Assembly: GCA_907164885.2 (NCBI GenBank)
Contig: OU015491.1
Span: 120,862,431-120,926,430 of the forward strand
DNA length: 64,000 nucleotides
Direction of reading: 5' to 3'
Source of the DNA: Dolomedes plantarius
Taxonomy: Eukaryota; Arthropoda; Arachnida; Araneae; Dolomedidae
The position numbers and the translations under genes are program-made. Of this stretch, positions 1,768-33,407 are shown piece after piece. Within the stretch, counting starts at the first letter, position 1. Every line of letters starts with the position of its first letter. Under the pieces are notes generated by a model. The model made no database searches, was not told the origin of the DNA, and worked only from the letters and a program-made list of their open reading frames with translations.

Positions 1768-3149
1768 TGCCATGAGCATATAGCCCACTCAAAATAGATT
1801 TTATGGCTAAAAAAAATTAAATTAAAGTTTTGAATATTGGTGGAGATATTTGTTTGGGCATACTGTTGAACATACTAAAAGTCCCCACCGATCAGGCTTG
1901 AGCTTTCTCCGCCATCTTGGAAAATGAGTAGACTTTTATAGTTTTTTGAAAGTAACTTGAGAAATATTGATTTTATGTAAAAAACTTTAATACAAAAATT
2001 GAAGAGCATTAAATTATGAACAAAAATATTATTTCCTTTCTTTATAAGTCTAACACGAACAAAGACAATTGACTTTGAAAGGAGCGAACTAGCACGCCTG
2101 GGACGCGCGGATACGCGGATCATCCCCATCGTGATGAGGGGATGACCGTGACCTTCGAAACCCAGGCTTCACAACTAGGTAGTGACGTCACACTACTGAG
2201 ATCTTTCCCGTGTTGATCCAACTCTCGAAAGCAGTGTGCAATATAGCATTGTTTACATAATTCTGTGAGAAAATTTGTTGTACTTACGAGCTTTTTAATG
2301 AATTGTTTCCTCCATAAAAAAGTGGAGAATCATCTTAGTGGAATATACAAATTAATAGTTTGCAATATTTGAAAATTTAATGTTTTTTAAGGAAAAAATT
2401 AAACAACAAAAATATTCAAAATTGAGCTACAGTACTCCTTTTAGTATATAAAATCATAAATCTTGATTGTAACTTTAAAGAACAAACACATCACACACAG
2501 GGAAAAAAAAAATTCTTGGTTGATTTCTATATGCACCACTAGACAATATTTTTCATAATTCGATTTTGTTTGATTTTTGCTGTTGATGATGAAAGGCTAC
2601 AAAGCAAAAATGAATAGCATTCTAACTACTACAATGAAAAAAATACAACCAGTTTTTAATCAATTTATTTAATTTCAATTACACATCACATTATTTAATA
2701 AAATTACACATAAAACATTTATCTAAATCTTATCAATACACAATATTATAATTAATGAAACAATAGAGACAGCTATACAGATATTTGAGACACTTAAGAA
2801 TTTTTAAGTGCCTCTAGCTTTCTCTTTGTTGCTTTATTAGATTTCTTTTTTGAGTGAGCAGCTAGAATTGCACCATCATATTTTCGAAGGTCACGGGATA
2901 ACCCGCGCGTGTGCACCAAAAGTCTTGTATACTCACGTTTGTCAAACCTCTATCAAAGCTCGAGAGAAAGTTGCAGCAAGATCCAATCTATTGTAATCCG
3001 GCTGTAATGTGAGGCTTGGTGGATCTTTTTATGTCATACTTCGGGTGCATTGGGAACATAATGGCTGGAAGTGGGTTAAAATAAATACTAACTTTGATGT
3101 ATGCAACTACGTCAGAAGAAAAAATGGTGCCTGACCATGCATACTCTAT
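1768..3149 (+). repeat. Left long inverted end of the PIN-domain element
   Basis: From 1803 (GGCTAAAAAAA) this reads almost base for base like the reverse complement of 32826-33392. Shared landmarks are GGTGGAGATRTTTGTTT, CCCCACCGATCAG, GCCATCTTGGAAAATG, GACTTTGAAAGGAGCGAACT, TGCACCAAAAGTCTTG and GACTGGAAGTGGGTTAAAAT (the last with one mismatch). Similarity looks like 80-90 percent. It stops near 3149 (CCATGCATAC), inside the region that codes for the protein's N-terminus in the right copy. The repeat is interrupted by the small element at 2124-2910. Confidence 0.75.
2124..2910. mobile_element. Small TIR element inserted in the left inverted end
   Basis: The right-hand copy of the long repeat reads straight from TCAT into GTGCACC. 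Here the same point carries 787 extra bases. The insert has inverted termini containing CCGTGACCTTCGAAA (2146-2160) and its complement (2882-2896). Near the right terminus a minus-strand frame ends in a basic stretch (HSKKKSNKATKRKLEALK) followed by a stop and an AT-rich tail with polyadenylation-like signals, so it may keep the 3' end of a former transposase gene. No target duplication could be fixed and the superfamily is unknown. Confidence 0.6.
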
Positions 3150-3761
3150 ACAACCGAAAGGAATACAACTGAAAGGAATGTTGCCTGGATGCCTCTTCAG
3201 TTGGGGGAAGAGACGAAATATATGGGGATATTTTAGTGACAAATTTTGCAAAGCATTTGTACTAAACTTATTTAGGGACTGTTCACTAGGATGTGCTCCA
3301 TACCAGATCAGAGAAAAACATTCTCCTGCTTAAGGAACATTATTGTGCGATGAGTTCCATTTATTAACTTCTGTAACGTTGTGCTCCATATCTTTATATT
3401 GGAACATTTTTAAACATTTTTTCTTTCCTTTGTTGAATGCTGCAGAAGTAGTATCGTATCCACTGAATGGAGAAAAATGATACTTTGGTATATCCCGATG
3501 ATTGTATTTTATTTGATGAATATATTTTTTTTCTTTGTTTTCTCTTTGCGTTGTTTGACAAGGAAAATATCTTTTTTCTGTAGGAGTGAGAGCTGTTAAT
3601 AGAACCTGGTGGTCAACATCTGCACTGATGATTACAACGATGTTATTACCAGAACAAGCTTCATTAATTGCAGTATTTACAATGAGAATGTCGGTGTCTT
3701 CATTAAATTGTCAGAATCGAATCCCATTGTTTTCCATCTCAATTGATAGTATGCTGATCAA
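3150..3761 (-). pseudogene. PIN-domain protein, C-terminal part (broken)
   Basis: The minus strand read from 3761 gives EDTDILIVNTAI, then SADVDHQVLLTALT, then FSGYDTTSAAF, and after a frame change PPTEEASRQHSFQLY. These follow the order of acidic motifs in FEN/XPG-like PIN nucleases: D-x-DT, E/D-D-x-D-LL-L and GCDTT. They also match a large arthropod family of long uncharacterised proteins. There are stops (after GIRF and after NNVP) and shifts. The region after HSFQLY, which in relatives continues into a Cys-rich tail, is missing and the inverted end begins instead. The upstream continuation is across the hAT at 10821-10940. Confidence 0.65.
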
Positions 3762-4388
3762 CAGGGGCGTTCCAACCCGGAGGTGCAAGGGGTGCGGGGC
3801 ACACGGGCGGCACATCAAGGGGGGCGGCAAGTCAGCCGCTCGGATAAAAAAAAAATTAAAACTAATTTATTAGAAAAATAACTAATATAAAAATATCACC
3901 ATTATGTTAGGTAACTACTTAGAGTTAAAAAATGCATTTTACAATTATAACTGGAAATAAACAGTAAGGTTTGGACTCAGAAGGGGAAGTGACGCGCCCA
4001 GGCGACAGTCGCGACCTATAGCCACAACTGTAGCTCTGTATAATAAGGCCCTTAGATTTATCGCTTTTGCGAAGTCAGTGTGTCTACAGGACATTGCTGA
4101 TCTAGTGTAATTTTTGTTTATGCGGCACATGCCGGATGTGATGAGGTTTGCGCGCGAAAAATGTTAAAAGAAGGTTATTCTGGGAGATTTTGTCTTAGGC
4201 TGAGGTCGTGTCAGATCATTTGCGCTCCCGGTATGTTATTTTTATTGTGATTTCGTTTTGTAACTCTGTGTCTCTCTATATATAATCAAATGTGTTTGAT
4301 TAAATTAAGACTTCGTTTTTATTTGGCGAAGCAAGAATGCCTATATTTTAATGATAATTTAAATTCGGCCATGGAGAAATTTACTTAA

Positions 4389-5812
4389 GGGGACAGTGGA
4401 CCTTCAAACCTAACTTTTTTTATTTTGAATGGATTTGCTTGAAATTTGAATATGTGATTAGTACCATAGATATGTAAAAGTGGTTAAAATTTAAAGATGA
4501 AATATTAATAATTTATGAATCATGAATTATTAATTATATCAAAAATTGGCCTCATTAAAAACGTTCAAGTGCATTTCTTTTGCATATAATATGGTCATAT
4601 TTATTTACAGGATACCTTATAGAACTAACAACGAAACTTACTGCTTATTTTAAGCATTCATTAAAAATATAAAGAGAAAAAAATAATAGTGAAAACACCC
4701 TTTTTATGACGCAAAATACCTATAAATCATCTTTTCAAGTACAAAATTTAGAAATTCTGAGCTACGAAGCATAATTTTTTTCAATAAGATTTATTTGATA
4801 TACAGTTAAGTATATAAAACTTAAATTTCAAAGCAATACGATCATTAGAAATGCGCCTGGAGTAGTTTGAATATTCGTATAACATGAAAATTTTTATTTT
4901 GAGAAAAACACATTTAAAGTTATTGCTGTTAGTAACCACATAATATCTAAATTAAATACAATGCCTATAACTAGGAAAGTAATCGCAGAAATAAAAAATT
5001 CTTTTTGCAACACATTTATACTCGTCCGTAGTTTCACAATTCAATAAAATAAAAAAAATCGAATTTTTGGACAAATTTCACAATTTTGAAAGTCCACTGT
5101 CCCGACAATGGACCATGAAACACTTTTTTTTTATTTATCAACCAATTGCTATGAAATTTTTTATACTTATACAGTGTTGTTTAGAGATGAAAATGCTAAA
5201 TTAAAAAAAGATCAGAATGTAATTAATTAAGATATTAATTAAAATCAGTTTGTTAAATACTCTACTTAAAAATGCTCCATGTGCATCAATTTTGTCTCAG
5301 ATATCTAATTTTCTTTCTTAAGCTAGCTTTATATAGTTATAATAAAAGTTAGTAGTAAATTAGATTTGCAGCCATATTTATAAAAACTAGAAAAGAAATC
5401 GATAAAAATAGGTCATTTTATGTAAAATTTTATGAATTTTTTTTTATTATTGTAAAAATTCTAAGGTGTTTTAAAATAGTATAATGAATTTATCACTAGG
5501 TTTTATTCTAACATATATAAATAATCATTTTATGAAATTTTATGAAAATTCAAGAAAAATTATGACGCATGGAACATTTTGAACTTACCGAAACGACATG
5601 AAAAGTTTCTTTGAGAAAATAGCATTTAAAGTTTTAATTTAATGTAACATTTCCATTGTTTAAGTTTGGAAAAATACTTATAACTCGGTTAATAATGATT
5701 GGATCAATATAACTTTTTTTTTAATTTAAAGCTGATGAGTTGCAGAATCATTTTCTGAAAAAAAAATCGTTTTTGAGACATATTTTTGTCAATCTGAAGG
5801 TCCATTGTCGCC
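4389..5812. mobile_element. TTAA-flanked MITE, head-to-tail dimer
   Basis: TTAA sits at 4385-4388 and 5813-5816. The outer ends are GGGGACAGTGGACCTTCA and the complement of GGCGACAATGGACCTTCA. In the middle, at 5091-5115, a right-type end (GTCCACTGTCCC) abuts a left-type end (GACAATGGACC). That gives two units of about 715 and 709 bp that also share internal wording. No coding capacity is seen. TTAA targets suggest a piggyBac-type or similar TTAA-specific transposase acting in trans. The superfamily is inferred only from TTAA. Confidence 0.7.
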
Positions 5813-6568
5813 TTAAACAAAACCACATTGGTTTTAGCAGCGCTACTCCACGTCGCAACCAGTTGGGAAATATATTGTTCGTTTTTGTTTTAGCACATTT
5901 TAACCCATCATCCCATCAAATCGCGTCGCATTGCCGGCATCGCATCGGTGCGGGCGGTTTTTGTCAGGTTGCAGGAAAATACTCTTTTATGCCCTGATCC
6001 TATAAATACACTGACCGGGATAATTTGCACTATATTAATTTTGAACGTGTCCATCTCAACAACTGAAAAACAAAGCTTTTTGTCTCTAATTTTTGTGCTC
6101 GATATTGTGATTGCTGACCAACAAAAATATTTCACAGGTAAGTAAACTTGGTGATATTTTTTCTTTTGAGCGGTTAGCGGTTAGAAATTGAAATAATACA
6201 TTTATGGTTTGACATTTGTTTTAAAAAAAACTAGGATTCATTACTTAATTCTATTTTAAAGGTTTTTATTTTATTTTGCAAATGTTAAACATATACTACA
6301 GGAACAAGTGTAAGCTTGAATTTTTGAACTGCATCACCTTATTTTTTTAACAGGTACGTGAAATATGGCAATTCAGAAATCGGGAAAATACGATTTTTTT
6401 TATTAAAGAAAACGTACGGGGAATTGTATTTAAAATATGAACAAAATTAAAATAAAATCGATTTGGAACGTTTCTTTGCAAAAGTCACTCTTTATCGAGA
6501 AACAGCTTAACTTTCATTGCGCCATTTTTATAAGTTCTTTACGAAAAGAACCTCATTTTTTTTTACAG

Positions 6569-9119
6569 ATGTCTGATAAACGTAAAAAGTTTTCTGGGGC
6601 CCAATACAGAAAAAGGAAACTTGAAAAAGAAGAATTAGTAAAGAAAGCTTGTGGTTCATTAAAAACATTTTTAATCCCAGCAAGATCGCATGAGGCGCCA
6701 TCAAGTTCCAGAGATACAAATATGACGGAGACCGAAATCACAAACCCCAAGGAAGATGTTTTAATCGCAGAACCAAGTCTTGAAACCAGTGAAACCGTGA
6801 CCAAAGATCATGAAGATTTTCTTCATCTTTCTTATAAAGATGATGTTTATAAGGATCCTAGCTGTTGGCCTTCCGTACCATCTGACAAAATTAAATTAAC
6901 TTTAGTAGAGTTAGGCCCTACCCAACTTACAGAAGCGGATCTAAACTTTCCTGTAAATAAAGATAACAGAGGTTTCTCATCTATTTATTATAAAAAAAAA
7001 TTAAGTAATGGGGAAATTATTCCAAGAGTTTGGCTAGTGTATTCTAAGTTGAAAGATTGTGTATTTTGTTTTCCCTGCAAATTATTTAAAACTTTTTCTA
7101 GTGCCTTTGTTGAGGGATATAGCGATTGGAGACATTTAACTCAGATTATTGAACGTCATGAAAAATCAAAAAGTCACATTTGTAATACAAAATCTTGGAT
7201 TGATTTAAATAAATCAATTTCTTCTGAAACAACTACTGATTCTCTAAATGAGAAATTAATAAATATGGAAAAAGATAGATGGGTTTCCGTGTTAAAAATT
7301 ATAATTTATACCGTTAAATTCTTAGCCGGTCAAAATTTGACTTTTAGAGGCAAAAATAATAAGTTATACGAGCAACGAAATGGAAACTTTTTAAAATTAA
7401 TTGAAGCAATTTCAAAGTTTAATGATACCATATCAGACCACCTCACTAGAATTAGCAGAAATCCATCAAGTATGCCTCATTATTTAGGTGTTCATATTCA
7501 AAATGAACTTATTTCCCTTTTGGGTCAAAAAATAAGACATGAAATAAATTCGCTCTTAAAAGTTAGTAAATATTATTCTATTATTTTAGATTCTATTATT
7601 TATTCTATTATTTATTCCACCCCTGATCTAAGTCACCAAGACCAACTTACTGTTGTAGTAAGATTTGTTCTATTAAATAATAATTCAAAGCAAATAGAAA
7701 TTAGGGAGCATTTTTAGGGATTTATTTCAATACCAGATTCGACAGGACAGGGTTTAACTGATATTTTATTAGATTTTTTGAGACTCACAACATTTGTTTG
7801 GGGGATTTAAGGGGGCAGGGTTATGATAATGGTGCGAATATGAAGGGTCGCAATAATGGTTTACAAAAAAAGTTCTTGACTTAAACCCTAGAGCTTTTTA
7901 TGTGCCTTGTGCGGCCCATAGTTTAAATTTAGTTGTTAATGACGCTGCAAAAGCGTCTTTAGAAATTACAAGCTTTTTTGTAATTGTACAGGAGCTATAC
8001 GTTTTCTTCTCCGCATCCAATAAACGTTGTAAGGTCTTAAAAAATGAAATCCCAACTTTAACGCTTAAACCCCTTTCAGATATTAGATGGGAAAGCAGAA
8101 TAGATGCGCTAAAAGTTCTTAGATACAATCTAACAAAAATATATGATGCTTTATATACCCTCTATTCTGATAATACTAGAGACTCTGAAACTAGAAACAT
8201 GGCAAATTCATTACTTTTGAAAATTAAGTCGTTTAAATTTATTTGTTCCATTATTACATGGTGTGTTAACAAAAATTAATATCGTAAGTAAAGCTATGCA
8301 GGAATCGGATGCTATACTTCCAAATATTATTTTAATGTTAGAGCAAACCAAAACATATTTATATAATATTAGGTCAGATAAAGGTTTTAGTGATATTTTA
8401 GAAGAGGCAAAAAATATTGCAGAAGATATCGATTGCGACCCTTCATTTCCTCTGGTTAATATTGTTGGACCCCGAACAAGAAAGCGTTTATTTGACTACG
8501 AATGTAAAGATGAGGCTCCAAAAAATCCAGAAGACCAATTCAAAATTAATTTTTACTTCGTAATATTGGACACTGCATTATCAAAAATAGAAGAAAGGTT
8601 CGAACAAATAAAACAACATCACACAGTTTTTTAAATTTTCTCAACGACCTCAATAATTTCTTTAAAACAGATAAATCAAATAGGTCTACAAAATGTAAAT
8701 CTGTGGAAATTATGTTACATGATCAATTTAAAAATGAAAAAGATATTATAGCTGAAGATTTATGCGATGAAATTGACAACGTTGCATCCTTTATTTCCCC
8801 TCAAATGAACGCGTTAAATGTGATTCAATACTTATTTACAAGTAACCTCATCTATCTGTTTCCAAATTTAGTGATTGCCATACGAATTTTTTTAACATTA
8901 CCCGTGACTGTGGCTAGCGGGGAAAGAAGCTTTTCAAAACTTAAAATAATAAAAAATTATTTGAGATCAACAATGGGACAAGAAAGGCTTTCAGACTTAT
9001 CTATTATTAGTATAGAAAAGGACATTTCGGAAGATATAGATGTATCAGATATTGAATTTGCATTAAAAAAGGCACGAAAAGCAAAGATTTTTTTAAGGTT
9101 TTTGACTGTCTGTTATTAA
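6569..9119 (+). pseudogene. hAT transposase, TTF/ZMYM1-type (frameshifted)
   Basis: The start is taken as the ATG at 6569 because it directly follows a pyrimidine tract and AG (an intron acceptor) and begins MSDKRKKFSGAQYRKRKLEK, a lysine/arginine-rich opening typical of the group. A TTF-type zinc finger follows near residue 150 (WLVYSKLKDCVFCFPCKLF, then a DWRHL block). The first catalytic Asp is in IILDS near residue 340, where a short duplication repeats IIYS. The frame closes at 7717. Coding continues in other frames: GYDNGANMKG (second Asp region) near 7820, VPCAAHSLNLVV from 7900, and the insertion domain to 8634. The C-terminal dimerisation block TVASGERSFSKLK follows near 8910. At least three shifts separate the pieces. 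Relatives are hAT transposases of the ZMYM1/Zaphod type. Confidence 0.9.
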
Positions 9120-9295
9120 GTATATGTATTAATAGATATGTGTTGTATGTATTTAATATAACGTATTCATTTGGTTACTATATCAATACATTGCAATTAT
9201 TATGTTAGGTTACACGTTGCAATTATTATGTTAGGTTACACGTTGCAATTATTATGTTAGGTTGTAAAATTAAAAAATAAACTGAATTTATAATA

Positions 9296-10687
9296 CACTC
9301 ATGGACAAAAAAATTAGCGCACCAAGAAGGAGTCGTCAAAATGAAACGAAATTTTACATACGTAATGACAACTTTGATATAATTAAATGATAAGAAAATC
9401 AAAGAAAAAGGATAATTTATTTAAGAGAAAACGGCAAAAGAACGGAGGAGTTAATACTCCGTTGGACCCCCTCTAGCGCGAATGCACGATGCGATACGAT
9501 CGGGCATTGAGTCATACAAGTTCTGTATGATGTCTTGAGACATTTCGTTCCATATTTGCTGTAACCTTGCCTCTAGTTCGTTCAAACTCGTGGGATGCCC
9601 AACTCGTCGTCCCAAATGATCCCAGATATGCTCGATTGGAGAAAAATCTGGGGATCGGGCAGGCCAAGGAAGGGTAGTAACAGTGCGGAGACAGTCTTGT
9701 GACACCCTTTTGCATGAGGCCGAGCATTGTCTTGTTGAAAAATGGCTCCTGGGAGCCGTTGCATGAGTGGCAACACATGTGGTTGCAGGATTTCATGAAC
9801 ATACCGCTCGGCTGTCATGGCGCCACTGAACAATACTAGGGGTGACCGTGTATACCATCACACCAGCTGTGAGAGCGATGTGTCGCTGTACAGCAAAGGC
9901 AGGATTGAAGCGTTCACCACGGACTCTCCACACACAAACACGATTGTCATCACTGCCGAGATTGAATCTGGATTCGTCGCTACAGACGACCTGGTTCCAT
10001 TCCGCTGCAGTCCAGTTTCTTCGTGCGTGGCAAAACTCCAAACGGAGGCGTCGATGGGTGGGCGTCAAGGGCAGCACACGTAATGGGCGCCGCGATACCA
10101 ACTGTCCTTCAGCCAGGCGCCTTCGTATGGTTCGAGAAGACACAGAGGCCCCTAGTGAAGGTGCTACCTGTGCCTGGATGGCGGCCGATGAAGCAGTTGG
10201 CTGTACGCGTGCATTTCTTACGATGTGGCGGTCTTCTCGACGACTGGTCTGTCGAGGGCGTCCTGAGCCTGGTCTTCGTGTACATGACATCTCTCGGGTC
10301 CACTGGTCCCAACACCTCCTCACAACACAATCAGAGCGGCCTAATTGACGAGCTACTCGCCTAGCTGACCACCCAGCTTCAATCATCCCGACGATTCTCC
10401 CCCTCTCAAACTGCGACAACTGCTTATATTGTCTTCGAACACCGCATAATGGCATGTCTATCTCAGCTCTTCCTTTGTAAATGATTCAGCACACTCAAAC
10501 AAGCTTTGGTTGCCTGTTTTATACTCCACAGAGTACGATGTTCAACGCCCTCTACCGGCTATACGTAATGCGCAATCACGCTGCATTTCTAATCATTTGC
10601 ATATCTCCCCGACATGTACGTTCATTGCAAGTTTCGTTACGATCCCGCAATTATTTCTTGGTGCGCAAATTTTTTTGTCCATGAGTG
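9296..10687 (-). mobile_element. Tc1-like element, copy 1
   Basis: Inverted ends CACTCATGGACAAAAAAATT are flanked by TA (9294-9295 and 10688-10689). The element lies in the 3' non-coding part of the hAT. It is nearly identical to copy 2 at 42598-44010 but has lost about 20 bp inside the gene. The length of 1.39 kb is normal for Tc1-like elements. Confidence 0.93.
9451..10455 (-). pseudogene. Tc1-like transposase, DD34E (frameshifted)
   Basis: The gene begins at the ATG at 10455 with a helix-turn-helix N-terminus (QLSQFERGRIVGMIEAGWSA), then a second HTH region with an AT-hook-like GRPRQ. The catalytic triad is visible: CSDESRF (Asp), QQDNARPH (Asp) and SPIEHIWD (Glu), with the spacing of a DD34E enzyme. 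A small deletion after TAGVMV removes the WGAIAYN segment and shifts the frame, and another shift follows NARPH. The protein ends at RARGGPTEY. It is about 335 residues when read through the shifts, the usual family length. It cuts and pastes its own element at TA sites, and this copy cannot be functional as it stands. Confidence 0.92.
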
Positions 10688-10820
10688 TATTTTCTGTAAT
10701 TCGTTGTTTCATTTAAGGTAAAAATATTTCAGATAAATTTCAATTAATCCATAATGTATGAGGGGGGGGCGGCAAAATTATTCTCGCACACGGGCGGCAG
10801 CTACCCTAGGAACGGCCCTG

Positions 10821-10940
10821 CTGATCAATTTGCTCTTGTTTTCATTTGAAAGGAACTGATCTTGTTGAACAGTAATTCGCATGTTTCCATCAAAATTTAT
10901 GTCTACAGATTTTTTCATAATAGACTGTATATTTTGTTAA
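10821..10940 (-). pseudogene. PIN-domain protein, middle piece
   Basis: On the minus strand this reads DINFDGNMRITVQQDQFLSN and on to NKSKLIS. In the family this stretch lies between the FDGY motif and the DADT motif. It is cut on one side by the hAT at its 8-bp duplication and on the other by the piggyBac at TTAA (10937-10940). Confidence 0.7.
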
Positions 10941-12870
10941 CCCATTAATGCCGACTTCGTTTTCTTTAACCATTTTTGTTACTTCTCTCATATTTGTATG
11001 TTTTAAGTCTATTAATGCGTATTACACTAAAATTATATTTTTGTTGCACTTTAACTATATTTTTTTTACTGGTACGTTTTCGTACCAATCGGCGTATGTG
11101 TGTAGTACACATCGAGAATAAAAGCTAATATTACATTTACTTATTAATGAAAATAATAACAAAATCGGGAATACCACAATTAAATGAAAAGCACGTTAGA
11201 TGATTTTCTGACAGAATAAAAGAATAAAATGTCTATTGAGTGCAAACATGACAGTTTTTATGGCACTGAGGATGATGTGGCACATTACACTTTTCGCGCT
11301 TGTAGCTGCTTCTACCGGAACAGTTCTTGCAACGGGCATGTTCTTGATCTGATCTGATTCACCAGTGACTATTCTTGTCAAATCTTATTTGTGAGGCCAC
11401 TTTATGCCTAAATGAAATTGGCTTACCTGGCCCTCTAGGCAATGTTCCATAAGTGAATAACAATTCCTGTGCGCATTGTCGTACGAACTCAAGAAGTAGG
11501 ATTTCATCACTATCATTTTTCATTTTATACAATTTCCATCCATTTATAACATTGGCACTAAGTACAAACGAAAACAATGGCAACCACCACTTTTTAGAAC
11601 GAATTATTACGCGATAATGTGCCACAGCTTGATCAACAAGGTCGAACAGTGGAGGGCCCGGCCCATGTACTGTAGTTACCACTACTCTTCCTGAACAAGG
11701 TCGACACCACCTATTATAAATTTTTGGCTGTTGTGGCATGGAAACATTAATTTTCTTCATTCTGCGGCACTCCATCGAGTAGCAGATACAATAGGTTTTG
11801 TAGAAACTCCTTTAATTGCAACAGTAACACTTTTTTGTCATTCCATTTGACGATACTGATATCTTCATGACATATATATTCATATGTCCTCCTTGCCGAC
11901 TTTTTCTATGGATGATAAAGATTTCTTTGGATGATAAAGGAACATTTTTCAGCTTATTTTCTCTCAATGTCCCGGTTCCTGCTATGCCTCTTTTCGATAG
12001 CTCTTTCAGCAAGGGAATGCTAGTAAATAAGTGTCCATGACAACATGTGTCGCAGGTGGGATCTCGCATTTGTCTAGTAACCCAAGAACAACATCGGCAC
12101 CTTGGCCTAAATCAGATTTTGATAATTTTGTAGATGCTCCACAATAAGGTTCAGCATGCAATAAAAGACCATTACAAGAACACAGAGTCCAAAGTTTGAA
12201 GCCAAAACGTATTGGCTTACCTCTTATGAATTGTTTTAGTCCGTGGTGCCCGAAATATGGAATTATAGACTCATCTACACTCAAAATTTTATACCAACAG
12301 CATAAAAGCATGACTTTTAAGGGGCAACAATTTATAAAATACACTTTTATAACAATGATTTAAAGTCAAAATATTATTTCAAAAAATTTTAATTCAAACG
12401 TGAAAGATTTTCGATTTTAATTCAAACTTGAAAGATTTCCGATTTTAATTCAAACTTGACTATACAATAGCCGGTTGGTACGGTTTCGTACCAACGATAT
12501 ATTAGTTTTTATATTTTATAAAACAAAGCAAAACATGACTTTCGAGTTGCATGAATTTATAAAATACACTTTTATAACAGTGATTAATAGTCAATATATA
12601 ATTTTGAGATAAATCCAAAACTCTTAACTTACTATTTTCTATGTGATGTCCGAGGCATATTGTTTCACGACGCTTTCACCTGTATGACTGAGCATAACGT
12701 CAAATAACAAGATGAACTTGAGAGAAAATGGAGGAAAATCTATTTTTCCCGCTATCAGTGAACTATTCTTGAAGCACATGACAATATTGGACAACTAGAC
12801 ACATTTAGTGCAGAGAAAAATAACTATTCTTAAGCTGGTACGTTTTCGTACCAATAGGCATTAATGGGTT
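10941..12870 (-). mobile_element. piggyBac-like element with broken transposase
   Basis: TTAA lies at 10937-10940 and 12871-12874, with ends CCCATTAATGCC on the left and the complement AACCCATTAATGCC on the right. Minus-strand remnants between 12344 and 11196 resemble a piggyBac (DDE_Tnp_1_7) transposase. The catalytic block SVDESIIPYFGHHG is followed by KQFIRGKPIRFGFKLW, then VVMDTYL, and a His/Cys-rich C-terminal region near 11220-11330. Several shifts and stops break it. Subterminal palindromes and a triplicated AT-rich motif at 12391-12460 are part of the element. It is inserted in the PIN-domain pseudogene, whose frame resumes across it. Confidence 0.88.
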
Positions 12871-13015
12871 TTAATTTAATTTTTTTACACTTTTAGTGGT
12901 TTTGGATTAGCCATTAAAAACGACTATACAGCTGGTCCTAAAATGATTTTTTGTATAGTTAACTTAATTTGTACAAACAGCCGAAAAAGTTAATTTTGCT
13001 TCCCATTTGAAAAGG
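12871..13015 (-). pseudogene. PIN-domain protein, piece with the FDGY-like motif
   Basis: On the minus strand this reads PFQMGSKIN, then with shifts a stretch ending IVVFNGYS (one stop within) and KTTKSV. The FNGY corresponds to the first acidic motif (FDGY) of the family, here Asp to Asn. The Gypsy element interrupts it at 13016 and the piggyBac at TTAA. Confidence 0.6.
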
Positions 13016-13077
13016 TGTGGGGAACTTTTTATTTTCAGTGCCACCAGATGTCAGCGCTAGCGAACGTCAGCGTATAG

Positions 13078-13973: not shown

Positions 13974-14296
13974 GCGTATAGATACATGCGCTGGCGTCTG
14001 CTCCGCAAACACTGCGCATAGGCAGATGCGCGCGAAGAAGCGAATAAAAAAAACGGACTCTGGCAACAGATAGGATAGTTCAAGCGATAGCCCACCCGGA
14101 CAGGACACTGACACCTGTTGGTCAGATTTCGCTTGCGACCTGTGAATGTTAATCGCTCTTGAATTTTTCTTCTCTCTGTAATCATTTAACTACGTAAAAA
14201 TAAATCGAATTTGTTAAATTCACAAAAACCTTCCGATTTGACTCTTGTTGGAAGTATTGTGTATTGCAATCACCACAAATGGTGACCGGCTCCTGC

Positions 14297-17554: not shown

Positions 17555-17627
17555 AAAGAGCAAGTCCAATGGAAAGCTGCTATGGACAAAGAAATCCTCT
17601 CCATGGAAGTAAACAAAGTCTGGGAAT

Positions 17628-18078: not shown

Positions 18079-18133
18079 CTGGGAATTAGTTGACCTACCA
18101 GCAGATGAGAAGAAACCAATAACTTGCAAGTGG

Positions 18134-22584: not shown

Positions 22585-22620
22585 CTCCTCGTACCTTCGG
22601 TACTTGGGGGGGGGGAGTAC

Positions 22621-22989
22621 TGTAGGGAACTCTTTATTTTCAGTGCCACCAGATGTCAGCGCTAGCGAACGTCAACGTATAGATAAATGCGCTGGCGTCT
22701 GCTCCGCGAACACTGCGCATAGGCAGATGCGCGCGAAGAAGCGAATAAAAAAACAGACTCTGGCAACAGATAGGATAGTTCAAGCGATAGCCCACCCGGA
22801 CAGGACACTGACACCTGTTGGTCAGATTTCGCTCGCGACCTGTGAATTTTAATCGCTCTTGAATTTTTCTTCTCTCTGTAATTATTTAACTACGTAAAAA
22901 TAAATCGTTGTTAAATTCACTAAAACCTTCTGATATGACTCTTGATGAAGTATTGTGCATTACAATCACCACAAATGGTGATTTCTACA
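22621..22989 (+). repeat. Gypsy 3' LTR
   Basis: It begins TGTAGGGAACTC after the G-rich tract and matches the 5' LTR through AATCACCACAAATGGTGA. The right boundary is set at TTCTACA before the AAGG duplication. The LTR contains a polyadenylation-like AATAAATCG stretch near 22899. Confidence 0.8.
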
Positions 22990-23270
22990 AAGGTGTACCA
23001 CTGTTGACGCAGTTCAGGAGGTTAAGTTCTTTGCTTGGAACTTCAAAAACGATGTGCATGGCCAATGTTGTTGTCTCTCGCATGCCATCTTCATTAAACA
23101 GAGCCAACGGAAAAGGAGCCAACTCATATTCTAGAGAAAATGCTAGCTCTTCGTCGTTTTGTTTAGCAATTGCTATCCCCTGAAAAAGCAACAATGGGTT
23201 TACTACTGTAATGAAACCGTTTAGTTTCACCGCACAAGTGACGGGAAAACTTTTTCCTTCCGTGATAACT
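22990..23270 (-). pseudogene. PIN-domain protein, middle piece before the nuclease part
   Basis: The minus-strand frame reads SFPVTCAVKLNGFITVVNPL, then QNDEELAFSLEYELAPFPLA and LFNEDGMRETTT. This corresponds to the block that in relatives starts at the repeated-protein hallmark INPLLLFQRI and YELAPYPLSLFDE. The left edge is the Gypsy duplication. The right edge at 23263-23270 is one copy of the BED-hAT duplication (GTGATAAC). Confidence 0.72.
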
Positions 23271-23522
23271 AGGGATGTGACATCGATGTCGATGTTTTCA
23301 AAACATCGATTTATTGGTCGATTTTTTTAACATCGATGTTTTGTGCTCGATGTTTTTTTAACATCGATGTTTTGTGCTCTGTGTTTTACGTTGCCTCAAT
23401 GTTTTTTTAATGAAAAAGTACCATTATAAAAAAAATTTATCACGTAGCATAATTTTCCCACTCAGTAAATGTAAGTCTGAATTCTGAAAAGGACGAATAC
23501 AAAAGGGGGAACGATTCCTTAG

Positions 23523-25832
23523 TGATACAACGCCTCCTGAACATATAAATAATTATCAAATTATCCTAGTTATCAATTTTAATTTGTAAAGTTAAATTTA
23601 GATTTATATTCAAGCCACGTGCTAAATAAGGCAGGCGAAGCATCAGATACATATAAAACGAAAGCACTTTATTTGGTTACAATGAACATTATAAAAAATA
23701 TCAATTAATAAATTTTGATTTCATATAATATTTTACAAGATGGAGAGAGGGATATTTACTGAGGGATAACGTACTCGCAGGTGGTTCTTTATGTTCTTTG
23801 TGTTCGCTTACAAGCGTTCGAAAACCTCCGTCCGCTGCGACCTTCCTTCTGCTTCCGAGACAAGATCTGCCCGCCAACCGGCATTGGCGCGGTCCCCCGT
23901 CGCCAAACAGCGCGCAGCGCCAAATTCGAAATGTGAGTACGCTCCCTAACATCCCTTCCCTCCTTGAAAAACATGCAAAGCATGTAGATGACTTCCGTAC
24001 AAAATAAATTGAAGTTGGTGATGATCAGTCACAGATGATTACATATTTTTTCAGCAAGGTGAAAAGTTCTCACGAAATGAAGTCCTAAACGGTGGCTCCG
24101 GAACAAACGGCTAACGTAGGAAAAAAAAAATTTCTTTCTCTTGTTAGCACAACAGAGATCAATGGAGAACGCCAGTTGTAAGTACGAACAACACATCTTT
24201 AAAGATGAGGCTGGCATGATTCTTCAAACACAAAACTATGTGGAGACGTTACACTCGTGCGAAGGCGAAGAATGCGTAATTATTTTACGCTGTAATAAGC
24301 AACACACTGAAGAAAGTAGACACATATTTAATAAGAACGGACGTGACAGTGAGCCAGTCTCCCTCACCACTCTCTCCATACTCTAAAAACCAAAAGGCTT
24401 GTACATCCGTAATGTGCTCAACAAACATTGTAATGTTAGGGAGCGTACTCACATTTCGAATTTGGCGATCGTCAGCTTTTCCAATTCGCTCCACCGCGTT
24501 AATTGGCTGACTTCGTCGATCCTATCTAAAAAATTCTTAATATCCCCCTTCTCTGGAAAATGTGGGTATAAGTTCAATACAACTGAGGTTGATGGTGGGC
24601 AAATTTGCCCGAGGGGATGGGTCCCTTTGTCTACGTGGCGGTATTTTTCACAATTTTGTAAATGTAAAAGCACAATAATTAACGGGAAAAAAAAATTGAA
24701 AAAAAAAATATGATAAATCGTAAATATAATCTATATGCGTGTACACAGAAATATATCTTAAACACTATTACATTTGTAAAACATATAACAATATTAAACT
24801 GGTTTCTTTGTTTTCTGATGAAACACACATATAAATGCAATGAATATACATTATCAATAATATAATCTACATGCGCGTACACAGGAATATATCTAAACAC
24901 TATTATATTTGTAAAACATATCAATATTAAACTGGTTTCTTTGTTCAGTAATTTGTTTCCATTAGTTTTCTACTTAAACATCTATATATCAGAAATGGCA
25001 TGCAAAAATCAGTATGAAATTCATCAATATAAATCACACTTTATGTGAGTTGAAAATACTTTATGCAATAATTGATAGCACTCTTAAAAAAATTGTTTAA
25101 ATAATACACAGTCAGTGTATCTTAGTATTCACAAAACCAATATTGAATCCGCTCAGCACATGGAACATACCGCTACTTCTGTTTTTTACTTTTTCAAAAG
25201 AAAAAAAATATTTACTTCAAAAATAAGAGGAAAATCGATAAAATTCATATCTCAATTGTCACGTGAAAAAAGTACCCCAAAATTTTTACGATGGAGACAG
25301 ATTGTGCTAAGCGCATTCAATGGCGTCCCCAACCGACAGCATGTCATAACAGAGAAAAAAAAAATTATATTTATTGACTGGAAGATCCTGGTCACAGCAC
25401 CAATGATACAACGCCTCCTGAACATATAAATAATTATCAAATTATCCTAGTTATCAATTTTAATTTGTAAAGTTAAATTTAGATTTAGATTCAAGCCACG
25501 TGCTAAATAAGGCAGGCGAAGCATCAGATACATATAAAACGAAAGCACTTTATTTGGTTGCAATGAACATTATAAAAAATATCAATTAATAAATTTTGAT
25601 TTCATATAATATTTTACAAGATGGAGAGAGGGATATTTACTGAGGGATAACGTACTCACAGGTGGTTCTTTATGTTTTTTGTGTTCGCTTACAAGCGTTC
25701 GAAAACCTCCGTCCGCTGCGACCTTCCTTCTGCTTCCGAGACAAGATCTGCCCGCCAACCGGCATTGGCGCGGTCCCCCGTCGCCAAACAGCGCGCAGCG
25801 CCAAATTCGAAATGTGAGTACGCTCCCTAACA
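23523..25832 (-). mobile_element. Short non-autonomous LTR retroelement
   Basis: Two 429-bp direct repeats (23523-23951 and 25404-25832) differ at only about four positions by eye. TTAG duplicates flank them (23519-23522 and 25833-25836). The related BED-hAT copy at 13078-13973 has a single CCTTAGCAAACAG at this point (about 13359-13371), an empty site. On the minus strand the element starts TGTTAGGGAGCG. A primer binding site TTGGTGCTGTGACCAGGATC reads from 25403 and a polypurine tract AAGGAGGGAAGGGA lies next to 23952. The interior (1.45 kb) lacks pol and holds only a gag remnant. It probably relies on enzymes of a Gypsy-like relative. Confidence 0.92.
23952..25403 (-). pseudogene. Interior of the LTR element with gag remnant
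   Basis: The only recognisable coding stretch is minus strand at about 24673-24471. It contains GDIKNFLDRIDEVSQLTRWS and ELEKLTIAK, resembling the start of a Gypsy-type gag capsid. It breaks off into an inverted piece of LTR (24432-24470, reading TGTTAGGGAGCGTACTCACA on the plus strand). Protease, RT and integrase are absent. The rest is AT-rich and shows repeated ATATAATCTAYATGCG blocks around 24725 and 24860. Confidence 0.7.
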
Positions 25833-26013
25833 TTAGCAAACAGACAAATGGTAATCAACAACCAATGAACCAATCAGAGCGCTTGGAATGTTCCTGACAC
25901 TCCAGAACATTCCATGGGGTTTTATTTTACAAATAGTATATACACGAGAGCAGCCGTTTAAGTTTTTGTTTTGTTCTAGTTCTAAATAAGTTGACGTTAA
26001 TTTTATTAGTAAG

Positions 26014-26250
26014 ATGCCTCTCAAAAGTACCGTTTGGAAATATTTTTGCAAAACCTCTGACAAATTGGCGAAATGCAATATTTGCCTTAAGTCCCTCAAA
26101 ACTTCTGGCAATACCACGAATTTATCTGGACATTTGAAGGCAAAACATGGCGATATTTACAACGAGAATTTTGAAGTCATCAGTGTAGCCCAAGGCAAAA
26201 GCAACCAAGTTTTTGTCATTTGTGTCAGCCCAATCAGAGAGAAAAATTAA
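26014..26250 (+). pseudogene. BED zinc finger start of hAT transposase, copy 2 (78 codons)
   Basis: The ATG at 26014 opens MPLKSTVWKYFCKTSDKLAK, with CNIC near residue 21 and HLKAKH near 40, matching copy 1 at 13544 with a few substitutions. The frame then runs into VISVAQGKSNQVF and stops at 26250. The DDE and dimerisation domains are missing. The upstream sequence repeats the CCAAT boxes, inverted GAA/TTC pairs and TATA-like region of copy 1. Confidence 0.75.
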
Positions 26251-26433
26251 ATCACCCCCCTCCCACGACTAACCGAAGTAACATTAATGTTAGAGATTAC
26301 TAAACCAGTTTTTAAAAATAGATGTTCTAAAACATCGATGGTTTTTGGGCGATGTTTTATTAGCATCGATGTTTTAATATTGAATATCGATGTTTCAAAA
26401 CATCGATGTTTTGTTATCGATGTCGCATCCCTA

Positions 26434-27222
26434 GTGAGAACTTCACATTTGAAAAATTGTTTTCAACATTCTTTGTCACTGCTTTTTTCCAACATCAATA
26501 GCAATGTAGCAGTTTATACTTGCGTCTCAAATACCTCTGGAGGCTATTGACATTTTATCATCCTTCTGAAATAGTGGATGGTTTTTAAACCAATCTACAA
26601 GCTTCTGGACATCTCTTGCATCTCATTATTTACGTGACTGTTCTAAATCAACGTGTTTATCGGATGAGACAAATACTTTACCCTGAGGTTCTGAAAAATT
26701 CGCAAATGTCGTGAGTAGCAGTCGTTCCCAAGATCCATTTACTGAGGACACAATCAATAATTCTTGGGCCATGAGTGAGATCACCGGTGCTTTTCATGCA
26801 TAAATGTTTGTCCGATAGCCATTTCTGACCACACCCAACTTAAAAATTTGTCCGTTCTTCGAACTGTAAAATATCCTTCTTTTATGAAATTGTCATATTC
26901 TTCAGTACTCATTTTGGACTTAAGGTGGAGCATATTCTACAGATATAAGTGGTTAGCTTTACAAAAAATGACCACTTGCATGAAAAATTGGGATCATTTG
27001 ATGAACACAAGGAAGGTGTTCATTCCAATCATGCGATCGTTCTGCGTAAATATATTCTTTCATAAGGTTTACCATTTCAAATTACTGAACTCAGAGGGCT
27101 GCAGTTGGGCCATTCTCTTTCAACTGCTTCAAAGTCTTTCTCATTTTAATCTCGACGCCTCGTATATGAGTATGTCCGTTTATGGTTTCAGCGATAGTAG
27201 TTCAGTAGCAAAATCTCTAAAT
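26434..27222 (-). pseudogene. PIN-domain protein, central piece
   Basis: On the minus strand, with many stops and shifts, one can read KEYIYAERSHDWNEHLPCV, then (other frame) FIKEGYFTVRRTDKFLSWVW followed by SEMAIGQTFMHEK. Relatives of this repeat family have a block like GYHTVRRSDRFWAGLSTDL followed by IEQVLMRS here. Further on, LVDWFKNHPLFQ and KNVENNFSN appear near 26590-26450. It joins the next piece across the BED-hAT at 23271-26433 and the previous one across the Pao element. Confidence 0.72.
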
Positions 27223-27532
27223 TGTTAGGGACTTTCAAATAATCCCTCAAAAGTGGACTGTATTTAAAATTTATTATACATCAAATATTTTCGTCTTATA
27301 CATTAAAATGGAGCCCCAAGGCTCAATAATAAAAACGAGCATGACAGCTCATAAAGCAAGAGCACGATAGCTCACAAGAACGAGCACGATAGCTCACAAG
27401 CACTACCAACCACCTTCGAACAGTGCCAGGTAGACTAAAAAGCACAAGCACGTGAACGCCGCCAATTCTCAAGAAGAGCCATTGCTCTTGGCGATTTATC
27501 ACCTGGGTTGGGGAATTTTTCGAGCATTAACA

Positions 27533-28077
27533 TCCCGGCCCCGTTGGAGGTCTTAACATTCAACACAGATTTGCAATTTTTACATAAGTTGCATCACACA
27601 AAGTACAATAATCAAATTTCGAGTATAATCAAAAATACAATAATAAAGTTTTAGACTTAAAAATATCAAACAATTGAATAAAATATAAAATCAATACAAT
27701 ACAATCACATATAATTCTGAAAATCATAGTGAGTAAGCTTAATAAAAGGTACAGTTAAAATGGCATAAGGTAAAGTCCCTTGAATCTTCATTCAAATAAA
27801 ATATAGATATATAAACACAACCAGTATTTCCCTATAACGACTGAAACAGCCAAGTATCTAATTATCAGTTTCAACAGGCAAAATACAGAGTTTCGAGATG
27901 GGTCTTTTCAAATTTCCATGCGCAGTGCGCACATCGGCTACTCTTATGCAACCATCCTCCCCATAAATTGCATTAATAATTCTCCCTAGAATTTGCATTT
28001 TGGAAGGTTATCCTCCCTTAAAATCACCATCATACCTGGTTTCACGTTATTTTTGTAAATTGCCATTTGTGTCGGTG
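27533..28077. other. 3' non-coding part of Pao element 1
   Basis: AT-rich sequence between the integrase remnant and the LTR. I see no frame or structure in it beyond the polypurine tract next to the LTR. Confidence 0.5.
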
Positions 28078-30384
28078 TTAGAAGTGTGTCAAACAATCTA
28101 AGCTCCATCTCTTCCATACTATTTGGGTCAATTTTTCCACACGTTTCCATCTATATAAACGATTGATAGGTATCTCAGTGATATCTGGTTCGAAAATTGT
28201 ATTTATAGCTCGACCGATCAAAAAATGACCTGGAGTCAAGGCCTCTAGGTCATTAATGTCTGACGAATTTTGTCTAGTGTAATACAACAGCGCTTGTTAG
28301 CTAATACGCAAGTATCTCTTATGGAAGTGTTCTAAAATTAGGTAAGTTACCTTACCTTTAATTGGCAAAATAATTTGATGGTTTTTATCAAAATTGACCT
28401 CTGCGTTCTGGAGCCGCCCTCCTACTCGTAGAATTCCCTTATCGTCTATGAAAGGATGCAAAGATCTTAGAATACTCTTACCTGAGAGCTGTTTACCCTT
28501 CATCAAGCATTTAATTTCATTACCAAAGTTAACCTATTGAGTATACTGTATTAATTTATTTTCTGCAAACCGGAATGCATCCCTAGCTGTTGGACCAGTC
28601 TGACGAGGTAGCTTCTTTCTGCAATTATCTAAGAATCTGTAAACAAAACTCATTACTTTAATTAGTTTAAGACAATTATTAGTAGAAAGAACAAGATAAG
28701 TAATAACGCAATTATTCACTGTAGAGGTCAGATTAACATTCCTTTGCTGTTTGAGTTCACAAATGAAATCACTAAGAGTTGTCACATGTTCTGGGTCACA
28801 AGGTTCTCCCATCACTGTAGATTCTCTAAAGAATGATGGACCATGCCACCATAATTCCTGCATCTGGATCTGATCAGGCATCAGACCCCTTGAAAGCAAA
28901 TCAGCCGGATTTTCCGAAGACGATACGTGGCTCCACTAATAGTCCGCAGTCAGTTCCTGAATTGTTGCAAATCTGTTTGCCAACGAAAGTTTTCAATTCG
29001 TGGAGATTTTTTCAACCATGCAAGCACTGTGGTTGAATCCGACCACAAATTCACGGTGCAATCCTTAAATTTTAAAGCCCTCACAACCTTTTGCCTGAGG
29101 TGTGTCAGCAAGAGCGCGGCGGAAAGCTCTAAGCGAGGAATATTATCTGGGTTGACAGGCGCAACCCTTGACTTGCTGCACAAAAGGTGAACGGAATTAG
29201 TAAAATTGGAGGTCTTGTATTGGGCGTAAATAGCAGCACCATAAGCGACTGATGAGGCATCCGCAAAACGATGAAGGGTGACTCTGTCATTATTCTCGAA
29301 AAACCTTGGAATTGCTATATTTTCAATATTTGGTAACAAGGACACAAATTCTATCCACTTCATTGTAAAGGACTCTGGTAACGGTGTATCCCAGTCCAAC
29401 TGAATCATCCAGAGATCCTGCATGAATAGCTTTGCCCTCGTAATCACAGGGCCTATCAGCCCGAGTGGATCAAAAACTCTAGAAATATCCGAAAGAACTG
29501 TTCGTCTAGTGTAGGTTATCTGAGGTTGAATTGACACCTTATAGGAAAAACAGTCATTACCAAGCTTCCATAGCACACCTAAAGCCTTAACAGATATTTC
29601 TTGATTAAACTCATCAAAGGAGTAAATCTCAGCCCCAGACTCATCATTCATGAGACTGGCATCATTGAGTTCCATTTATGAAGCGTCATACCTTCCCGTT
29701 CAAGTAAGAGGACTAACTGACGCTTCAACTCCCTTGAAGACCTCAATCATGTGATCCGGTAAGAATATCATCCATATAAAAGTCCTCCCGAGCAGCCGAA
29801 GCCGCGTTTGGGAACAAATCCTCCTCATCTTCACATAACTGCCTTAATGCTCTTGTAGCTAAATAAGGCGCATTCTTTGTTCCATAAGTAACTGTGCAAA
29901 GTTTTCAAGTTTTAACTGAATCAATTGAGGTTTCTCGCCTTACAATTCTCTGCAAGTCTCTCCGAGTGGGTTCTATCAGTATCTGATGATACATCATTCG
30001 GATATCCCCGGTAAATACGAAAACATGCTTTCTAAAACGTAGCATTATGGAAAAGAGATCCTGTTGGGGTAATTTACCATTCAATTGAAGTTGATTTAAA
30101 GAGACACCAGCAGATGTTAAGGCAGACCCGTTAAAAACAACTCTCAATTTAGTTGATGATTTCTCCGGTCGGAAAACGCCATGATGTGGAAAATAGTAAC
30201 AACAGTCAGGCTCAATTTCATCAGAAACTTCCTCCATATGGCCCAAATTTTGATATTCCTGAATAAAATCAACATACAATTTTTTCAAATTTGGGTTACG
30301 CTCTAAGCATTTTGAAAGAGAATTTAAACGGTCAATTGCCATAGATCTAGATTTACCTAATATCCTATCGGTCTTCAATGACAT
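28078..30384 (-). pseudogene. Pao 1 RT, RNase H and integrase remnant
   Basis: RT begins near 30230 with YFPHHGVFRPEKSSTKLRVV and FNGSALTSAGVSLNQLQLNG, and DIRMMYHQILIEPTRRD holds the first catalytic Asp. After a shift, TYGTKNAPYLATRAL and the active site DFYMDDILTG appear near 29890-29740. RNase H is recognised by HRFADASSVAYGAAIY and LWSDSTTVLAWLKKSPR (29300-29000). The integrase keeps its entry region (DKGILRVGGRLQNAEV, LEHFHKR) and a C-terminal LTPGHFLIGRAIN block. The DDE core between them is deleted. Several shifts are present. Confidence 0.9.
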
Positions 30385-30520
30385 ACTAACGACGTATCGA
30401 CCATCCTGTGTTCTAGAATGAGTTTCGATGAAGTATCTTTCACATTCTTTTTCTTCACTACTTAAAATAGGGTCCGAACTATCAACCGCCTCTATTTCCC
30501 AAAAGCCGCGAAGGGTTTCT

Positions 30521-32334
30521 TCAAGATTTAATGTTTCCTGTACAAACCCACAGTAAATATGTCCTCCTGAATTTCTTACTAAGCTCGAACCGATTACAAT
30601 ATACCCAAATGCTGTCTCCTGTAATATTAGTCATGAATCCTTCATATAAATTTTTTCCCGTTCTTAACATATCAAAAAATAATCCCGCTCCAAGTAACGC
30701 ATCGTCCCTTTCAGGTTTGAAGAATGCCGGGTCGGCTAATTCAATATTTTTATCCAACTTCCTGAGATCTATTTTTACATACGTGGAAGGGCTAACCAGC
30801 GTAATTTTTGGCACAATCATAAATTCTATTGCTCTCACAAAGTCATTGGATTTATTCGAAATTTCGGTCGACACCTGAGCCTTCACCGGTATAATAACCC
30901 CATTTAAATCAGAAATTGGAATATTTAATTTTTCTCTTTTCAATCTCAAACGATCTCCACTTTCCAAAGAGATTGCTCTAACTTGGTACCCAGAATCATA
31001 GATACATCGCAGTGGGTGTTTATTTCCGCTTCTATCTCTGACATAGATAATTGCTGTGGCTAGGTTTACCCTAGACACACTCTCAGGACAACTGGCACTA
31101 GCGCAGACAGCCGACGTCTGCCCAAGGTCAGAAGATGGCTCCCTGTTCTGCTGAGAAGGCGACGAGAAATGAGTTTTGTCCAAAACATTTCCTTCCTCCG
31201 CTTTCGAATTGTAAGGTAAAAGTGAGTTATGCCTTTTACCACAAAATTTGCACACAAATGTAGACTTGCAATCAGCAACCCTGCAAGACTGATTCAAACA
31301 ATTTATGCCCAGTGAGAATTTTTTAACCAAATTGAATCTCTGTTTTGTGTCCATGCGAAGAAATTCTGAACATTTAAAGATGGAATGCATTCGCGATTTA
31401 CAAATCACACAGGACAAACCCAATGTTGAATCAACCATAAAGCTTTTAATATTAGAAACCATCTTTCGTTTCATTTGATTCGAATGTCCGTGAAAATTTT
31501 CCAGAAAGGTACAACGCGTTTTTAAAAAGTCTATTAAATCATCCCATTTCCGTAAATCCGAAGTTTTCAAAGTCATTTCGAAAAGTTTTCTCGGTTCCTT
31601 GTCAATTTTCTGGAGTACAATATTAATCAAAATATTCAAACTCAATTGATCCAACTGCAAATCCAGAGAAATCAATGCTCTAACTTGTTTTATTATCTTA
31701 TCAACAAGAGATCGTAATTCAACAGCCGATTCCTGAGTAATATTTTCCAAATTCAAAAGTTCATTTATATGCGTGTTACCAGTAATCGTTTAGGATCATA
31801 ACTCTCTTGTAGCGCCTTAAAAAGTGAATCGAAAGTGTCCTCGGTAGTTTGAATTTGCTTAGCATTACCGGTTAGCGAAGACTGCAAATAGAACAGTTTT
31901 TGTGATTCATCTAAGTTTTTATTTGAAGAAATCAAAGAATCAAATTGGGCCTTAAAATTATGCCAATCCTCAATATTACCCAAAAATCTTGGCAATGCAA
32001 TATCAGGCAATTTTATTTTAACGTTATTGGTTTGAACACTCAAATTTTCTAATTGAGATTTAATTCTAAGGAATCCTACCTCCGACTCCTCGATTTCTTG
32101 TTCAATGTCTTCCAAAGCGCTATCCACCTGAATAAAATCCTTCTCTTCTGCAATTTCATAATAGTCCAGTCGCAGCTCTTCCAGCTGATTTTTAACTGTT
32201 TCCAAATTATTCATTTTTGCAGAAATTGCAATGGAAACGCGTGAAGCATTTTCTTCTTTCAAATACTTCGAGAGTCTGACAACCTTTGCCTTGAAGGTTC
32301 CTCTCCTTCTATTGAGGCTCTTCAAATTCGCCAT
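30521..32334 (-). pseudogene. Pao 1 gag and protease
   Basis: Gag starts at 32334 (MANLKSLNRRRGTFKAKVV) with a coiled-coil-like region, then the DUF1759-type block IALPRFLGNIEDWHNFKAQF and SLTGNAKQI. A frameshift near 31760 leads into 31756-30521. That carries Cys-rich motifs (CVICKSRMHSIFKC, CKFCGKRH) and a protease with CIYDSGYQVRAI, where relatives read DSGSQ. About 600 residues in all, normal for the family apart from the shift. Confidence 0.9.
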
Positions 32335-32711
32335 TTAATATACCAGCGCGAAACGTTTTTCAAACGAAAAGCTTATGTCCATAGGCCACTAAATCTTCAC
32401 TCTGCGGTCGCACGGACCAAAATGTTAGGGACTTTCAAATAATCCCTCAAAAGTGGACTGTACTTAAAATTTATTATACATCAAATATTTTCGTCTTATA
32501 CATTAAAATCGAGCCCCAAGGCTCAATAATAAAAAAGAGCACGACAGCTCATAAAGCAAGAGCACGATAGCTCACAAGCACTACCAACCACCTTCGAACA
32601 GTGCCACAGGTAGACTAAAAACACAATCACGTGAACGCCATCAATTCTCAAGAAGAGCTATTGATCTTGGCAATTTATCACCTGGTTTGGAGAATTTTTC
32701 GAGCATTAACA

Positions 32712-32890
32712 TCTGAAGCATTAACACAACTCGTGGAGATTATTGCTTTTGATATCAGATATGTCCATAGCTTCAAAAATTATTTTTGCTAAAGCTGTTT
32801 GGGTAAATAAATGACCTAGGAATTTTCTAGCGTATGCATGGCCAGGCAATATTTTTTCTACTAACGTAGTTACATGCATCAAAGTTAGTA
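32712..32890 (-). pseudogene. PIN-domain protein, N-terminal piece
   Basis: The minus-strand frame from about 32880 reads LMHVTTLVEKILPGHAYARK and then FLGHLFTQTALAKIIFEAMD before a stop. The block resembles the RAIRGH-type region upstream of the central part in the family. The first third lies inside the inverted end, so the left end (3090-3149) contains a plus-strand version (LMYATTSEEKMVPDHAY). Confidence 0.6.
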
Positions 32891-33407
32891 TTCATTTTAA
32901 CCCACTTCCAGTCATTATTATATGCACAACGCAACCTAAGTATGACATAAAAAGATAGAATCCGCAAAGTCTCACAATGAAACCTGATAACAATGAAATG
33001 GATGTTGCTGAAACTTTCTCTCGAGCTTTGATATGTACAGGTATGACAAACGTGAGCATGCAAGACTTTTGGTGCACATGACCAGCGCATCCGCGTCCAA
33101 GATGTGATAGTTCGCTCCTTTCAAAGTCAGTTATCTTTGTTCCTGTTAGACATAAAAAAATTTAAATAATGTTTTTGTACATAATTTAATGCTCTTCAAT
33201 TTTTGTATTCAATTTTTTTTACATAAAATCAATATTTCTCTAGATACAAACAAAAAAAGTTTACACATTTTCCAAGATGGCGGCGAAAGCTCAAGTCTGA
33301 TCGGTGGGGTCTTTTAGTATGTTCATTAGGATGCCTAAACAAACATCTCCACCAATTTTCAAAACTTTCATATTTTTTTAGCCATTCGTCAAAATCGGGT
33401 CTATTTC
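32826..33407 (-). repeat. Right long inverted end of the PIN-domain element
   Basis: It matches the complement of 1768-2123 plus 2911-3149. Unlike the left copy it has no insert, so it shows the pre-insertion state at the point where the left end carries 787 extra bases. The outer tip reads TTTTTTAGCCATTCGTCAAA, then GGGTCTATTTC before AAC. Confidence 0.75.

Follow-up and report, generated by a model that had tools for sequence, protein, structure and literature searches.

The window analysed here is a stretch of 64,000 nucleotides from the spider Dolomedes plantarius (assembly GCA_907164885.2, contig OU015491.1, positions 120,862,431 to 120,926,430 of the forward strand). It contains a transposon remnant in which two long inverted arms enclose six minus-strand fragments of a single decayed protein, scattered among nested transposons. 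The element is old and disabled; it belongs to a known kind, but the structure of its ends is unusual. A first-pass annotation of the window had proposed an undescribed mobile element of about 3.2 kb at 1768-33407, with a nuclease gene between inverted ends.

The transposon remnant and its limits

Comparison of the termini of 19 copies places the element at 1781-33417. The earlier call of a mobile element thus stands with shifted limits: its left one included 13 bp of the target, and its right flank held the last 10 bp of the element. Once the nested inserts are taken out, the summed pieces amount to 3345 bp, in agreement with the proposed size and with the 3.2-3.5 kb of the family. The features are, in order (basis in brackets):

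1778..1780: left copy of the target-site duplication, ATA (termini of 19 copies; ten empty sites)
1781..2123, plus strand: left arm, outer part, non-coding, beginning TAGCCCACTCAAAATAG (self-match, termini comparison)
2124..2909: later insert of 0.79 kb splitting the left arm, ends CGTGACCTTCGAAA / TTTCGAAGGTCACG (no counterpart in the right arm)
2910..3153, plus strand: left arm, inner part, an inverted copy of transposase coding sequence (region of the second catalytic Asp, changed to Val, then a stop)
3149..3762 (coding reading 3749-3180), minus strand: gene piece 6, nuclease part with the relics EDTD, ADVD and GYDTT
3763..10814, plus strand: nested element, presumably hAT-like, enclosing a second, presumably Tc1-like element at 9290-10693; outer limits approximate (open reading frames, self-match)
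10815..11045 (coding reading 10978-10820), minus strand: gene piece 5, nuclease
11046..12873: nested piggyBac-like element, limits approximate (DDE_Tnp_1_7 match under the cut-off, 19.9 against 22.4 bits)
12874..13015 (coding reading 12987-12874), minus strand: gene piece 4, VVFNG followed by a stop, a relic of VVFDGY
13016..22981, plus strand: nested inserts that we take to be gypsy-like and copia-like long terminal repeat (LTR) retroelements; limits approximate (repeat pairs, open reading frames)
22982..23269 (coding reading 23275-22973), minus strand: gene piece 3, between the transposase and nuclease parts
23270..26434: nested repeats, among them a short element whose direct ends (430 bp) are 99% identical (self-match)
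26435..27218 (coding reading 27213-26400), minus strand: gene piece 2, transposase part with Gly at the catalytic Glu position (SEMAIGQ)
27219..32713, minus strand: nested insert, presumably a BEL-like LTR retroelement, LTRs 95.6% identical (repeats, open reading frames)
32714..33078 (coding reading 33074-32715), minus strand: gene piece 1 and inner right arm, transposase coding sequence from LTFV (for TFDQP) to GHAYAR
33078..33417, minus strand: right arm, outer part, the minus strand opening TACCCCTGTTGAAATAG (self-match, termini comparison)
33418..33420: right copy of the target-site duplication, ATA (termini comparison; ten empty sites)

The inverted repeats of about 0.6 kb reported around the gene were recovered as two matches, the left arm being split by the insert at 2124-2909: 1803-2123 pairs with 33385-33078 (84.8% identity, E = 3e-84) and 2910-3148 with 33078-32828 (82.5%, E = 3e-54). 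The Asp-to-Val change and the stop are present in both arms. Between the arms the divergence is 12-14% (Kimura two-parameter distance 0.13-0.16) against 4.4% between the LTRs of the presumed BEL-like insert, which is consistent with a later arrival of the nested insertions. The 2124-2909 insert itself has inverted ends around CGTGACCTTCGAAA and is possibly a small non-autonomous element.

The insertion target (1600-1780 plus 33421-33560) is itself a repeat, of which at least ten further copies exist. One frame is open through it (..LGVEPKTYSNMLMAVILQLLPKDL..), and it looks like a retroelement gag. Searching with a 200-base join of both flanks gave 14 matches, two being the flanks of the window. 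Ten of the other 12 were fetched, among them L036 and L037, which are separated by 1.3 kb and so perhaps not independent of each other. All ten are uninterrupted across the junction, five reading exactly GAGCATATTACTG and five differing by one or two substitutions, so that empty sites exist within the same genome. Because these copies run unbroken through the ATA junction, the AAC pair that had been proposed as the duplication is a coincidence; they and the copies of the family show that the true ends are displaced by 13 and 10 bp. A 3-bp duplication was thus rightly suspected, with ATA as its sequence. The flanks rejoin in frame at the true join as well (..TYSN-MLMAVILQLLPKDL..). Searches with the peptide joined at the misplaced junction found no homologue and no Pfam family, only weak matches at chance level. 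The window copy, in short, inserted at ATA inside a repeated sequence and was afterwards filled by other transposons.

Copies and relatives of the family

Further copies were sought in the assembly from which the window comes (2.78 Gb in 390 contigs). With the 582-bp end as query, 42 matches of 79-100% identity were found, 40 of 2768 first-look candidates having been scored. Twenty loci were fetched with their flanks; these are the best-scoring places rather than a random sample. Comparison of termini gives the real ends as TACCCCAGTC on one side and GACTGGGCTA on the other. In 17 of them both inverted arms surround the gene pieces in the same order, although L020 is without piece 5 and part of piece 6. 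The expected pairing of ends with the gene thus holds for these 17; of the other three loci, L023 (1.2 kb) has the arms but no gene pieces, L017 consists of a single arm, and L021 is a truncated copy. An exact 3-bp duplication flanks 14 of 19 copies, window included, where about 0.3 would be expected by chance (1 in 64); a 4-bp match occurs in none. The five without a 3-bp match are L012, L014, L018, L023 and L025. In L012 (C14:46498500-46507900) the end types are also swapped relative to the gene, perhaps by inversion between the arms.

The aligned copies share their damage. The second catalytic Asp is Val in 18 of 18 aligned copies (GTC in 16, GTT in one, GTG in one), and in every one of them the GSGLK stretch is followed by a stop (TAA in 17, TGA in the window); 13 of the 18 have a further stop two codons earlier. 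The nuclease reading is disrupted by stops or a change of frame in 17/17 fetched copies. Codon 174 of the nuclease piece reads as a stop in 16/18 copies, but this stop was dropped from the account as it follows an indel relative to the window and lies outside the copies' own frame. Since the shared lesions occur in all 18 aligned copies, the founder was presumably functionless already, and a related transposase acting in trans probably mobilised the family.

The arms of one copy are 88-96% alike when gaps are ignored (16 copies measured). By blastn, paired arms average 87.5% identity (16 copies) and different copies 87.4% (28 pairs from 8 copies). We had considered concerted evolution of the arms and dropped it, given that copies differ from one another as much as paired arms do.

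Bases 163-784 of gene piece 2 have no match among the 20 arm-selected loci. The copy in the window represents a longer form with 622 bp of additional transposase sequence, for which 50 matches were obtained (of 84 candidates, 40 were scored). Among the four loci of this form that were retrieved, L032, L034 and L035 share the same 5' end, and in L033 only a 3' inverted arm is seen. Only parts of an inverted 3' arm are present in L032 and L035 and none in L034; a 3' terminus, looked for in the fetched sequences of these three loci, was not found.

The six minus-strand pieces do form one protein, as had been claimed. Read through, with X at the stops, they match a single family end to end (37% identity to P0001 over 99% of the query, E = 2.5e-141; 18 proteins at E <=0.01 among 6854 candidates). 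An alignment query extended this to 464 matches at E 1e-5 (scoring was limited to the 7994 candidates with the most shared words, and 120 were listed). Among the matches listed these are animal proteins, mostly unnamed or 'hypothetical'. Full-length relatives measure about 1470 amino acids and combine a DDE-type transposase with a C-terminal FEN/XPG-type nuclease; in 68 of 130 listed relatives a single chain contains every transposase and nuclease motif that was searched for. The nuclease part of the relatives is predicted to adopt the FEN/XPG fold, in support of the nuclease type recognised earlier. In the window itself the letters have decayed to FNG-stop (for FDGY), EDTD (DADx), ADVD (GEDVDL) and GYDTT (GCDTT).

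Compared with P0022, the window copy begins at about residue 576 of 1473 and misses the region of the first catalytic Asp; TFDQP has become TFVIP, and the catalytic Glu is Gly. The arm does not hold the N-terminus of the gene, as had been thought, but a middle portion of the transposase domain, everything upstream being absent.

Pfam, NCBIfam and PDB sequence searches gave no useful name besides DUF6589 (PF20231). Its cut-off is exceeded by one of 14 relatives (P0110, 30.3 against 27), whereas six score below it and seven are not listed; seven of the 120 listed proteins have it as a precomputed annotation. Scans of viral and genome contigs found no relative, and the literature search found no paper on the window family and none on the meaning of DUF6589 for Academ. 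P0002, a close relative of the transposase family, is filed under the rust fungus Austropuccinia psidii, on a 5.2-kb contig.

Open relatives also exist in the spider genome. The full-length protein as query gave 41 matches, several with long open frames (32 of 12,843 first-look candidates scored). L029 (6066 bp) and L030 (6060 bp) are 99.3% identical to each other; their inverted ends measure about 367 bp (93-94%), their termini read TAGTCCAGTCAA and their duplications are cta and gat. L031 (5859 bp) has inverted ends of 146 bp (90%), termini TAGTCCGGTCAA and the 4-bp duplication gtct. In all three the inverted ends enclose the open frame and lie outside the gene; the Glu motif was detected in L030 and L031 but not, by the pattern used, in L029. 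Being only 32-33% identical to the window protein, they represent sister families rather than its direct source.

Classification and origin of the long ends

We consider it highly probable that the window element is a dead, non-autonomous cut-and-paste copy of the AcademX type, within the Academ superfamily, that arose by the mechanism outlined below. The nuclease of AcademX is of the XPG type, and the lineage was reportedly first described by Kapitonov and Jurka. The filing rests on anatomy, that is, on domain content and duplication length, and not on comparison with named Academ sequences. AcademX elements encode a nuclease and make 3-4-bp duplications, AcademH elements have a helicase and 9-10-bp duplications (PMC10045372), and Academ belongs to the DDD/E superfamilies (PMC9587614). 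Two surveys give a mean Academ length of 5565 bp in a bivalve library (PMC10294476) and report Academ in every species of an arthropod set (PMC6327564).

The family and its relatives resemble AcademX in having terminal inverted repeats (TIRs), a DDD/E transposase and an XPG/FEN-type nuclease; their duplications measure 3 bp in 14/19 copies and 3, 3 and 4 bp in the open relatives, whose 5.9-6.1 kb lie near the bivalve mean. The window family differs as a deletion derivative, apparently abundant in copies, whose ends contain duplicated coding sequence. With the outline of AcademX published (PMC10045372, PMC9587614), 'undescribed' can hold for the window family only. AcademH shares the superfamily by name but differs by its helicase and longer duplications; in the 19 copies the flanks agree over 3 bp and not over 4-8 bp, and in the open relatives, tested to 8 bp, over 3, 3 and 4 bp.

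The hAT and P element superfamilies make 8-bp duplications; no copy matches at 8 bp, and both are set aside, like AcademH, on duplication length. The best structural neighbours of the modelled transposase half are the P element, hAT (Hermes) and Transib-RAG1 transposases, which leave duplications of 8 or 5 bp and are not known to contain a FEN/XPG domain. The neighbour lists of both models are each filled by a single domain. FEN1, Exo1, XPG and GEN1 share the fold of the C-terminal half and its series of acidic motifs, but they are host repair enzymes, whereas here the nuclease is a domain within a transposon protein. Foldback-type elements resemble the family in their long inverted arms flanking a short core; here the arms consist of one element end plus the element's own coding DNA.

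Following this classification, the DDE-type domain would cut at the TIRs and join the ends to the target, leaving a duplication of 3 or 4 bp, and the C-terminal nuclease would probably process the cut ends by trimming flaps or hairpins. Before spreading, the window family would have lost roughly the N-terminal two fifths of its protein, the second catalytic Asp and the frame, to be moved by a related transposase. On the simplest account, its ends of 0.6-0.7 kb formed when one end, together with some 0.25-0.35 kb of the transposase coding DNA next to it, was copied in inverted orientation onto the other end, landing beyond the old opposite end, for example through faulty repair during excision.

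That the long arms are simply the original TIRs of the family, without later duplication, is unlikely in our view. In its favour, the 17 complete arm-selected copies all have them, and the two arms of a copy are closely alike. Nonetheless, the inner portion of each arm is transposase coding sequence bearing the same lesions, an older inverted copy (74-80%) of about positions 160-308 sits just inside the left arm in 16/16 copies examined, and the TIRs of the three open relatives are shorter and clear of the gene. Two points slightly lower confidence in the AcademX explanation as a whole: paired complete arms were seen in the shorter form and the window but not in L032-L035, which may retain an older 3' end or be truncated, and there are the Argonaute rows.

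Still less probable is a DDE plus XPG superfamily distinct from Academ that shares the 3-4-bp duplication by chance. It would fit the indirect basis of the Academ filing and the failure of 13 of 14 scanned members to reach the DUF6589 cut-off, but those published features of AcademX that could be checked were all found. The least credible proposal is the earlier one of a new type in which a FEN/XPG-type nuclease drives movement by itself and no DDE transposase takes part. In the 3.5-kb copies nuclease pieces are indeed retained while most of the transposase is gone; however, the nuclease reading is broken in 17/17 fetched copies, and relatives as well as open copies in the genome hold the DDE-type domain upstream in the same chain, a part of which the window has lost.

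Under the AcademX classification, one may speculate, though we hold it rather doubtful, that the copying of one end, with part of its coding DNA, onto the other produced a symmetric parasite with two strong ends, mobilised by the DDE-XPG transposase better than the transposase's own element, and that the fused XPG-type nuclease helps to make such end duplications through hairpin or flap processing. The family offers a clear example of a non-autonomous family with captured coding sequence in long ends, which aids correct repeat annotation. It also ties a large, mostly unnamed animal protein family to DDE-XPG transposons, with the limits of one insertion fixed by empty sites.

Nested elements and neighbouring sequence

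An Rfam scan of the window gave no match at gathering scores. The short element with direct ends (23523-25833; 430 bp, 99%) sits inside another repeat that is also found at 13078-13974. The presumed Tc1-like element at 9290-10693 has a second representative at 42592-44016, 94.7% identical across 1425 bp. Farther downstream, an open reading frame on the minus strand (54910-55617) looks like a transposase that we take to be of the ISXO2/Merlin type.
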